From: an uncultured Ruminococcus sp.
GTDB taxonomy: Bacteria; Bacillota; Clostridia; Oscillospirales; Ruminococcaceae
Assembly (NCBI GenBank): GCA_946537515.1
Contig: CAMNFV010000006.1
Span: forward strand, 1 to 34,493
DNA length: 34,493 bases
Direction: 5' to 3'
This document shows, piece by piece, positions 6,963 through 10,051 of this stretch. The position numbers and the translations under genes are program-made. Numbering within the stretch: the stretch's first letter is position 1; the number at the start of each line of letters is the position of its first letter. The notes below the pieces were generated by a model. It saw only the letters and a program-made list of their open reading frames with translations, was not told the origin of the DNA and made no database searches.

Positions 6963-7883
6963 TCACTTTTTCCAGCGGAGAATCCGCTTTTGCAGCAGAT
7001 TAAAGAGGAATGTCACGCCAATCACCACAATGCCGATCACCAGCAGGCCGGTAATCGTCCGGGTGTAGTCACCGAAATCGGAATAATACTTGACATAATA
7101 ACCCATGCCGTCGCGGGCGCCGATCATTTCCGCAGAGGTCAGCAGGATGAATGATACACTCAGCCCCTGGTTGCATCCGAGAAAGATCTGCGGGAGCGCT
7201 GCCGGAAGCAAGACCGAAAACAGCATCTCCGCCTTCGGGACATTCAGCACCTTTGCAGAGTCGATGATACGCTGATCGACATGCATGACGCCGCTCATCG
7301 TACCCGCAAATACCGGCCAGAAGGTCGCAAGAAAAATCACAAAGACCGAGACCGACTGGAAGGTCGGGAGCAGCGCAATGCCGTACGGGATATAGACGAT
7401 CGGCGGGATCGAGCTGAAAAATTTGGAGATGTAGGTCGCGGCACCGCCGAGTCTTGCATTCCAGCCGAGGAACAGTCCGAGCGGGATCGCAACGACGGAT
7501 GCAAGCACAAAGCCCTTGACCGTGATGCCGAGCGAGCTCCGGATATTGATGAGGATCTTCTCTCTGTCCTCTGCAAACTGATGCAGCACCTTGCCCGGTG
7601 CCGGGAACAGCAGATCATTCAGCACATTGAATTTTGCGGTCGCCAGAGACCAGAGCGTCAGCAATACAAAGATAAATCCGACAATATCGAGCAGCAGCGA
7701 AAGGCTCTCCTTTTTCTTTATGAGAAAGCTGACAGCCAGCGTAACGGCCTCCAGACCGATCGCAAATGCGAGCAATGCACCGGTATGGACTTCTTTTGTA
7801 GAACGATCCGGCAGCAGCTGGACGAGCAGCAGAATGACAAACAGCAGATGCGTGATACGCAGCAGACGGTTTTTCAGCGTCAT
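6963..7883 (-). CDS. ABC importer permease, SsuC/TauC/NrtB type
   Basis: BPD_transp_1-type segments: VLHQFAEDREKILINIRSSLGITVKGFVLASVVAIPLGLFLGW, FFSSIPPIVYIPYGIALLPTF. Confidence 0.88.
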   Translation of the reverse strand: MTLKNRLLRITHLLFVILLLVQLLPDRSTKEVHTGALLAFAIGLEAVTLAVSFLIKKKESLSLLLDIVGFIFVLLTLWSLATAKFNVLNDLLFPAPGKVLHQFAEDREKILINIRSSLGITVKGFVLASVVAIPLGLFLGWNARLGGAATYISKFFSSIPPIVYIPYGIALLPTFQSVSVFVIFLATFWPVFAGTMSGVMHVDQRIIDSAKVLNVPKAEMLFSVLLPAALPQIFLGCNQGLSVSFILLTSAEMIGARDGMGYYVKYYSDFGDYTRTITGLLVIGIVVIGVTFLFNLLQKRILRWKK

Positions 7884-8698
7884 ATCACGACCTCCTCTCC
7901 GCCGATGCGTGCCGCGACATCCTGATAAAGCAGCGACAGCAAGCGGTTCCGGAATTTGCCGTATTCCTCTGTTTTGACGAGATCCGCACGGCTTCTCGGA
8001 CGCGCAAACGGTACCTTGATGATCTCATTGACCGTACCCGGATGCGCCGTCAGCACGACGATTTTATCGGAGAGCAAAATTGCTTCATCAATATCATGCG
8101 TGACGAAAACAACAGTCTTGCGCTGCTCCGGGCTGTCGCCCTCCCAGAGGGAGAGCAGCAGCTCCTGCAGCACCACGCGATTCTTTGCATCAATCGCGCT
8201 GAACGGCTCATCCATGAGCAGGATATCTGTATTCATTGCAAGCGCCCGGGCAATCGCAGCGCGCTGCTGCATTCCGCCGGAGAGCTGTCCGGGATACTTT
8301 CCGCCGAATTCGGCGAGGCCGACTTTGCCTAAGAATTCATCCGCGATCTGAAAGCGCTCTCTGCGGCTGAGTTCATGCCGCGTCTGCTTGATGCCGAATG
8401 CAATATTGCGCCGGGTTGTCATCCAGGGGAAAAGCGAATAATGCTGAAAGACGACACCGCGCTCCCTGCCGGTCCCGTGCAGCGGCTCGCCGTTGATCTC
8501 AACCTTGCCTTCCGCGGCCTGATACAGCCCCTCCAGCACGCTGAGCAGCGTCGATTTGCCGCAGCCGCTCGCTCCGATCACGCTGACAAATTCTCCCGCT
8601 CCGACGCCGAAGGAGACATCGTGCAGCGCATTGAACTTTTTGCCGCGTTCGGTATAATCAACCGTCAGGTGACTGATCTCGATCTTATTCGTATTCAT
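7880..8698 (-). CDS. ABC importer ATP-binding protein, SsuB/TauB/NrtD type
   Basis: Walker A GASGCGKST, signature LSGGMQQRAAIARALA, Walker B ILLMDEPFSAID. Start MNTNKIEISHL at 8698; overlaps the permease (ATGA) and the SBP. Confidence 0.92.
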   Translation of the reverse strand: MNTNKIEISHLTVDYTERGKKFNALHDVSFGVGAGEFVSVIGASGCGKSTLLSVLEGLYQAAEGKVEINGEPLHGTGRERGVVFQHYSLFPWMTTRRNIAFGIKQTRHELSRRERFQIADEFLGKVGLAEFGGKYPGQLSGGMQQRAAIARALAMNTDILLMDEPFSAIDAKNRVVLQELLLSLWEGDSPEQRKTVVFVTHDIDEAILLSDKIVVLTAHPGTVNEIIKVPFARPRSRADLVKTEEYGKFRNRLLSLLYQDVAARIGGEEVVI

Positions 8699-9890
8699 TG
8701 AAATGCTCCTCCAATGATTTATAAATGTCATCGGAGTTTTCGGCAAGGATGCTGTTCAGCGCAGTCTCATAGATCTCGGTATTATACAGCGGTTCAATAT
8801 CATAATCCTCTGTATAGCCGAGCGCCACGATCGTATCCTTGAGTGTCAGCGTGCCCTTTTTATCGGGATCGGGACTGGATACGCTGTATCCGCCGTAAAC
8901 TTCCGTATCAATAAATTCCTCGTCGATATCAATGTACTTCTTGACATCGGCAATCGTCTTCTCGTGATCCTCCTGCGTCAGATGATACGCCTTGAGGAAT
9001 GCACGTTCCAGCGCAACAAAGGTATTCGGATTTGCCTTGACAGACTCCGTTGCAGCAACCTGACGGCAGCACGGCTGATTCTCCAGCGCCTTTTCATGTG
9101 CGCAGTAATACACGACCTTATAGCCCTGCGATTTCGCAAGCGACGCATACGGCGAATAGACCGATGCAGCATCAATCGTCTGATTCGAGAGCGCCGCGTA
9201 GGCGTCCTTCTGGCTGTCGAAATAGACGATATTGACCTTGTCCTCGCCCTCACCGATCTCAATGCCGGCATTCTTCAGCAGGATTTGGAGTTCAGCATCC
9301 TGAACGCTGTTCTTGACGGATGCAACATTTCTGCCCTTGAGGATCTCAACGCCGAGTTCATCTTCCTCTGCGTATTCGGACTTGATGACATAGCCGTGGC
9401 CGTTTGTCATTGCGCCGCCGACGATCGTAACATCATGTCCCTGGCTCTGGAAGGTCAGCGTCGGGACGGAGCCGATGAACGCAAGATCAAGCTTGCCGGA
9501 TTCCAGACCGTTGACCAGCTCGCCTGCGCTGGAGAACTGCGTCAGCGTGACGTTCAGGCCTTCTTCCGCAAAATAGCCCTCTTCCGCCGCGACAAACGCG
9601 AGCAGATGCGCGGTGGAATTCAGATAGCCGAGATTGAGTTCTGCCTTTTCCGGCGCAGCTGTTTCATTCTTCTTTTCGCAGCAGTCAGAGTCGCTGTCCG
9701 AGCAACAGTCCAAGTTGTCTCCGCAGCAATCTGCGACTTCTGCGGAATCGGAATCTGCCGGAACGGTTGCCGGTGCATCTGTAATCGGTGCATTGTATCC
9801 GGCCGACTGCTCGGAAGTATTGAAGGCCCCGCAGCCGGTCAGAAGTGTCAGCGATGCAAGGATCGCAGTTAATTTGACTGCATGTTTCAT
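8685..9890 (-). CDS. ABC importer substrate-binding lipoprotein, NitT/TauT/SsuA-like, with Cys-Cys-rich N-terminal linker
   Basis: Lipobox LTLLTGC; NLGYLNSTAHLLAFVAAEEGYFAEEGLNVTLTQFSSAGELVNGLESGKLDLAFIGSVPTL; adjacent permease and ATPase. Confidence 0.9.
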   Translation of the reverse strand: MKHAVKLTAILASLTLLTGCGAFNTSEQSAGYNAPITDAPATVPADSDSAEVADCCGDNLDCCSDSDSDCCEKKNETAAPEKAELNLGYLNSTAHLLAFVAAEEGYFAEEGLNVTLTQFSSAGELVNGLESGKLDLAFIGSVPTLTFQSQGHDVTIVGGAMTNGHGYVIKSEYAEEDELGVEILKGRNVASVKNSVQDAELQILLKNAGIEIGEGEDKVNIVYFDSQKDAYAALSNQTIDAASVYSPYASLAKSQGYKVVYYCAHEKALENQPCCRQVAATESVKANPNTFVALERAFLKAYHLTQEDHEKTIADVKKYIDIDEEFIDTEVYGGYSVSSPDPDKKGTLTLKDTIVALGYTEDYDIEPLYNTEIYETALNSILAENSDDIYKSLEEHFNEYE

Positions 9891-9935: not shown

Positions 9936-9992
9936 TTATGCATAACATCGCATTCGGTCAGAATATGTAAGGAAAATTGGATTCTGCTTCAT
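9936..9992 (-). CDS. Putative 18-aa leader peptide MKQNPIFLTYSDRMRCYA upstream of the importer
   Basis: SD GGGGAG, 7 nt spacing, ATG at 9992, TAA at 9938-9936; lies between the promoter and the SBP gene; its 3' half overlaps a 7-bp stem (9923-9929 / 9949-9955). Confidence 0.5.
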   Translation of the reverse strand: MKQNPIFLTYSDRMRCYA

Positions 9993-10022: not shown

Positions 10023-10051
10023 ATCATAGCATATTCCTATGCATTTGTCCA
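10023..10051 (-). promoter_or_regulatory. Promoter of importer operon (TGGACA-17-TATGAT) with palindrome GCATAGGAATATGC filling the spacer
   Basis: Minus strand TGGACA AATGCATAGGAATATGC TATGAT; GCATA-GGAA-TATGC at 10029-10042. Confidence 0.7.

Follow-up and report, generated by a model that had tools for sequence, protein, structure and literature searches.

Several described systems resemble parts of the locus analyzed here. Substrate-binding proteins (SBPs) of the SsuA/TauA/NMT1 type (PF13379, PF09084, TIGR01728) share with it the core fold and family, the combination of one ATPase with one permease, and a sulfur context. The extensions of the plant zinc ATPases HMA2 and HMA4 are likewise acidic, poorly conserved regions with repeated CC pairs that vary by whole pairs; for zinc, the di-Cys arrays of HMA4 have an affinity in the nanomolar range, and HMA2 binds three Zn through its six di-Cys motifs (PMC6255694). 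In AdcA, zinc recruitment to the binding protein is helped by a flexible loop together with an accessory domain, the ZinT-like domain being fused to that protein and separate elsewhere (PMC7858048). AdcA/ZnuA proteins, with their His-rich loop and ZinT domain, offer a parallel for a flexible accessory metal-binding part as well as for an accessory domain that one group carries fused and another as a separate protein. Finally, CC motifs accompany the selenocysteine-assisted organometal (SAO) system, which includes the Cys-Cys-COOH protein SaoC and which supplies, with SaoX, SaoA and SaoP, some of the NCBIfam subunits named nearest to parts of this importer.

In this work, we analyzed a stretch of 34,493 nucleotides from an uncultured Ruminococcus sp. 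(the window), which encodes an ABC importer whose binding lipoprotein carries three Cys pairs in its N-terminal linker. The locus differs from each of the systems above. Relative to SsuA, the lipoprotein adds three core Cys, including a PCCR motif, and a Cys-pair module. The HMA2/HMA4 arrays lie in the cytosolic tail of a plant exporter ATPase, whereas here the pairs, three or six in number and with no His stretch, belong to the extracellular linker of a bacterial importer. AdcA/ZnuA proteins use His/Glu ligands on a cluster A-I host fold, in contrast to Asp-Cys-Cys on an SsuA-like fold. As for SAO, the scores stay well below the NCBIfam cut-offs (SaoX 58.8/300, SaoA 230/360 and SaoP 91.7/295 bits), the examined genes beside the importer include neither an SAO lyase nor a selenoprotein, and the accessible part of the SAO review (PMC13188914) mentions no [D/E]CC lipoprotein. 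A literature search that covered few subscription journals returned no relevant account of a Cys-rich linker or lipoprotein on such an importer.

Results

The importer and its binding protein

The features of the importer operon are collected in Table 1. The lipoprotein core scores above the Pfam gathering thresholds (NMT1_2, 96.3 bits vs 24.7; NMT1, 63.3 vs 20.5) and below the curated cut-off of TIGR01728 SsuA_fam (111.5 vs 163.5 bits); its best Foldseek match is SsuA 2x26 (E 1.5e-17), and a ZnuA/AdcA-type (cluster A-I metal) domain is absent from its Pfam and NCBIfam matches. In the AlphaFold2 model the SsuA-like core is confident, with its first strand at residue 84, and pLDDT is below 50 at residues 8-51 and about 56 at residues 51-70; the fold proper is modelled to begin near residue 82. 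The protein has the lipobox LLTGC20, and C20 is shared by 90% or more of the 30 homologues aligned, the lipobox-like N-termini of the fused and split forms discussed below having been judged by reading and motif rather than with a signal-peptide predictor. The stretch with three CC pairs that the preliminary description had placed at residues 55-71 reads CCGDNLDCCSDSDSDCC in the translation and corresponds exactly to window positions 9728-9678 of the minus strand.

Table 1. Features of the importer operon in the window, ordered by position
Feature	Position	Strand	Basis
ABC permease of importer	6963..7883	-	PF00528 8.3e-18
ABC ATPase of importer	7880..8746	-	PF00005 2.3e-33; first in-frame start listed, a start near 8698 being as likely
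Substrate-binding lipoprotein, 401 aa, NMT1_2/SsuA-like	8685..9890	-	Pfam PF13379 E 3.4e-27, PF09084 4e-17, Foldseek
Substrate-binding core, residues 82-401	8688..9647	-	Pfam, AlphaFold2, Foldseek
PCCR motif, residues 273-276	9063..9074	-	Homologue alignment; also in distant paralogues
Disordered acidic linker holding the Cys-pair module, residues 21-81	9648..9830	-	pLDDT about 30-56 over residues 21-70
Cys-pair module DCC-GDNL-DCC-SDSDS-DCC, residues 54-71	9678..9731	-	Translation and homologue comparison
Signal peptide and lipobox LLTGC, lipidated Cys20	9831..9890	-	Read off translation
Conserved upstream ORF MKQNPIFLTYSDRMRCYA, family ...SERMRCC, separate from module	9936..9992	-	Homologous-loci comparison
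Promoter-like site of SBP operon, TGGACA-17-TATGAT	10023..10051	-	Consensus match only

Within the core, every aligned homologue has C274-C275 of PCCR, whether or not its linker bears the module, and the Cys at residue 263 is invariant too, making three core Cys. The TGSF segment of SsuA aligns with PCCR, and two aligned SsuA sequences have no Cys pair at this position. PCCR could lie in the ligand cleft. The Cys motif of Thi5 was considered as a parallel for such a ligand site; sequence alignments of Thi5 leave the PCCR region uncovered.

Downstream of the importer, on the same strand, lie genes for an LCM-family methyltransferase, a Cys/Met-metabolism PLP enzyme, an S-adenosylhomocysteine hydrolase, a PLP beta-family enzyme (cysteine/cystathionine synthase type), a LysR regulator and a 2-oxoacid:ferredoxin oxidoreductase subunit. 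Relatives have LuxS (L074) or TusA- and ThiF-family genes beside the importer (L060), and a multi-subunit oxidoreductase placed 3' of the permease. The locus appears to serve methionine-to-cysteine conversion with disposal of 2-oxobutyrate. Given this gene context, the importer most likely supplies sulfur metabolism, and the tie to sulfur metabolism proposed for it at the outset holds, resting on the adjacent hydrolase, methyltransferase and two PLP-enzyme genes.

The Cys-pair module in fused linkers

A contig scan yielded 80 loci, mostly from Ruminococcus and other Oscillospiraceae, with 79 usable N-termini (window included). Two of the six scan patterns derived from the linker and neither is present in the retrieved N-termini, so that retrieval rested on the core. 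The distribution of Cys pairs is all-or-none: exactly three CC pairs occur in the linkers of 39 of the 79 N-termini, and no linker Cys in the other 40. Six Cys make up the whole complement in 37 of the three-pair linkers, the remaining two having one extra. Every pair is preceded by an acidic residue (117/117; Asp 112, Glu 5) and, because the Asp codons vary freely (GAC 78, GAT 34) while the residue is fixed, the constraint acts on the residue. No pair is broken among the 234 linker Cys codons of these 39 sequences. The surroundings, in turn, drift: spacers between pairs measure 5-10 residues, linker length changes as well, and identity is 100% in the CC pairs vs about 53% in the spacers even when these are optimally aligned. 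This is the pattern, conserved pairs in a drifting linker, that the preliminary description had proposed to look for by aligning orthologues. With its repeated CC pairs in an acidic disordered region, the linker also shares the architecture of di-Cys metal-binding arrays.

Further genomes added four three-pair linkers (L112, L194, L195 and L198), in one of which (L112) Asn precedes one of the three pairs; the sole exception seen is L111, where a single pair is accompanied by a lone Cys. The stretch is not a chance occurrence: the 3.1 Mb genome has just two places with three consecutive [D/E]CC, and the three pairs recur in 39/79 homologues. As judged by these comparisons, the module is either retained complete or lost complete, and intermediates are nearly absent. 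Absence of the linker Cys from close orthologues, which the preliminary description would have counted against the linker, does occur in some of them (L012, with a core 94% identical), solely as clean loss of the whole module.

DCC triples are found in 10 of 295 genomes of the order and, outside the window's genome, the stretches inspected read by eye as simple or differently built repeats. The window's own genome has, on contig C140 at about 1896-2382 (G000, L095), a 162-codon open frame of PKDCGVPKDCGVPKGCCVPKDCC repeats without a clear start. Otherwise, the [D/E]CC arrays of this bacterial family are found in CobW-type GTPases and P1B-type ATPases, both of which are metal-handling proteins. 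The Oscillospiraceae examples are CobW/COG0523-like GTPases and P1B-type ATPases, so assigned by reading rather than by model search, with long ECC-His/Asp arrays such as ECCHHHDHDEEEHECC (L180-L187, L164, L196).

Split lipoproteins carry the same motif

A separate small lipoprotein with the same motif is encoded beside the importer genes in 16 loci in which the binding protein lacks the Cys linker (L060, L064, L074, L076, L078-L083, L085, L132, L190, L193, L017 and L024). Its gene usually lies directly, or a short distance, upstream of that for the binding protein. L017 and L024 differ in that their binding-protein gene is divergent and Cys-free and a six-pair lipoprotein heads the ATPase-permease operon. 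Nine of the split lipoproteins have three pairs and seven have six, with no other number, in a search that required at least three pairs and among proteins many of which are close relatives; this is suggestive of a multiple-of-three rule. Asp precedes 57 of the 60 pairs in the 14 split lipoproteins examined by residue, and no lone Cys follows the lipobox. No Pfam or NCBIfam Cys-rich family, metallothionein included, scored above any cut-off for four split modules.

Fused and split forms interleave on the core tree, a quick tree in which many forks have less than 80% support. One clade holds the split L064 and L132 beside the fused L056-L058, L061, L062 and L069; in a second, the fused L053 falls near the split L074-L085; and the split L017 and L024 sit within a mostly fused R. 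flavefaciens clade (re-splitting). Single PDCC relics were read from the sequences of L063 and L066. The all-or-none pairs, the adjacent split lipoproteins and the interleaved tree together show that the importer has here a modular protein part at the cell surface and not a linker accident.

These results bear on one alternative, a neutral low-complexity linker whose Cys pairs are merely inherited by descent. Linkers of lipoproteins are indeed free to drift, and pairs are missing from close relatives such as L012; nevertheless, the lack of any broken pair despite spacer drift, and the repeated fused and split arrangements, make this explanation very improbable.

Copies that lack the module

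Several genomes, among them those of R. flavefaciens strains ATCC 19208 (L018, L047), 007c (L032, L037) and YRD2003 (L033, L051), have two such binding proteins; the copy with ATPase and permease has the module and the orphan copy does not. Orphan or apparently orphan copies, all without the module, are L014, L015, L035, L037, L038, L041, L042, L047, L051 and L052, L014 being counted as apparently orphan as it sits at a contig end. The module has also been lost from some operonic copies (L012, L020, L036, L046, L055 and several distant loci). No compensating [D/E]CC lipoprotein was found elsewhere in the checked genomes without a module next to the importer, the only [D/E]CC triple in the L012 genome being a P1B-type ATPase, which implies that the module is dispensable there.

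Leader peptides, the upstream ORF and translational control

A different role suggested for the pairs was that of a within-gene checkpoint of Cys supply, in which ribosomes would stall at the CC codons under Cys scarcity and thereby regulate the operon. The pairs do lie early in the operon's first gene, and Cys-rich leader peptides are present in the locus, one of them followed by a terminator. However, (i) the linker Cys codons are the bulk codon TGC (224/234), whereas in the leaders upstream of the methyltransferase 129 of 178 are TGT, (ii) the acidic residue before each pair is conserved at the protein level, (iii) the linker lacks the terminator or alternative RNA fold of a Cys-codon leader or attenuator, its RNA in four fused cases folding no better than shuffled sequences (z -0.6 to -1.4), (iv) in the split loci L074 and L085 a distinct Cys-rich leader, with a terminator hairpin of its own, precedes the module gene, and (v) the module also occurs as a separate lipoprotein bearing a signal peptide. 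Both the conservation of the acidic residue and the presence of signal peptides on the split forms argue for a function of the protein, and we regard a checkpoint as extremely improbable.

The neighbouring leader peptide (window 6777-6667, minus strand; MKTMCCMMCCRSRKLNMQPAHTHAMQRRCCHIIHEL) indeed has three CC pairs, and the linker had been said to mirror it. This comparison does not stand: leaders in relatives have 0-4 pairs and mostly the rare codon TGT (129 vs 49 TGC), whereas a linker with the module always has three, written with TGC, and the resemblance looks coincidental. Upstream of the methyltransferase, window 6849-6627 (minus strand) combines a 12/12 promoter match (6849-6821), the leader and a terminator-like hairpin (6661-6627), and is likely a Cys attenuator. 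No Rfam family matched anywhere in the window.

Another small ORF, ending ...SERMRC(C), lies about 50 bases before the SBP start and in the same place in about 40 related loci. Its bases CGAATGCGAT are identical in 24/24 aligned loci. Across 45 such ORFs, CGA encodes the Arg before Cys in 44/47 cases, vs 9/325 in the core, and TGT the Cys after Arg in 53/75, vs 3/240 in the core. This codon usage suggests a Cys-responsive or nucleotide-level control element; RNAalifold predicted no structure for the SBP upstream region.

Discussion

The movement of the module in and out of the binding protein constitutes strong genomic evidence for an accessory function, of which we found no description. Among the roles proposed in the preliminary description, capture of a metal or thiol at the cell surface is the best remaining reading: the conserved surface module stands, and the choice between a metal and a thiol or disulfide is one that sequence alone cannot make.

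We give even chances to a module in which the six thiols bind a thiophilic ligand, likeliest a soft metal or a metal-thiol complex, and so raise its supply for the SBP. An extracellular, membrane-tethered, disordered acidic stretch presents units of three [D/E]CC pairs; their six thiols would form a site for zinc, copper(I) or a similar soft metal ion, or for the imported sulfur compound as a metal-thiol complex; and the bound ligand, enriched at the membrane, would then be handed to the SsuA-like binding protein. This mechanism is drawn by analogy with di-Cys zinc sites and with the His-rich loops and ZinT domain that serve zinc-binding proteins in this way. On chemical grounds, an acidic neighbour suits cation binding over reactive thiolates, and the remaining arrays of the family belong to metal-handling proteins. 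Several findings count against a metal: the module has almost no His, unlike the CobW/P1B arrays; the adjacent genes concern methionine and cysteine metabolism, not metals; the core is not of the ZnuA-like metal type; and some operonic copies do without any module.

Instead, the vicinal Cys might act as a trap that, by exchange outside the cell, captures the sulfur nutrient itself (a thiol, a disulfide or sulfane sulfur) and passes it to an SBP with its own PCCR. A locus devoted to sulfur amino-acid conversion, the TusA- and ThiF-family genes adjoining the importer in L060 and the invariant core Cys, PCCR included, would all suit it. Nevertheless, the fixed acidic residue should, by chemical reasoning, disfavour reactive thiolates, the core Cys are equally present in homologues without the module, and exchange chemistry has no obvious need for a fixed three pairs, so that we hold such a trap to be unlikely, though a serious contender.

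A purely protective or scaffolding role, in which the thiols act as a sink for toxic soft metals or oxidants close to the importer, or disulfides pair SBPs or lipoproteins, with no hand-over to the SBP, seems to us distinctly unlikely. The six pairs of some split modules may exceed the need of one site, and the entire module can be lost, both of which fit this role; the strict association with importer operons and the absence from orphan SBPs would be unexpected for a general protectant.

It is tempting to speculate, and possible if doubtful, that these proteins constitute a new family of detachable three-pair Asp-Cys-Cys modules serving as a thiol antenna that harvests a sulfur nutrient (thiol, disulfide, sulfane sulfur or metal-thiol complex) for the ABC importer. 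If true, this would be a sulfur-starvation system that invests six to twelve extracellular Cys to capture sulfur. Since the module costs cysteine amid genes for sulfur amino acids, its benefit must outweigh that cost.

Importer binding proteins have usually been studied as a folded core; here, a disordered tether bears a counted and conserved set of six thiols. The module gives a testable handle on the acquisition of sulfur compounds, or of metals bound to them, by Oscillospiraceae of the gut and rumen.
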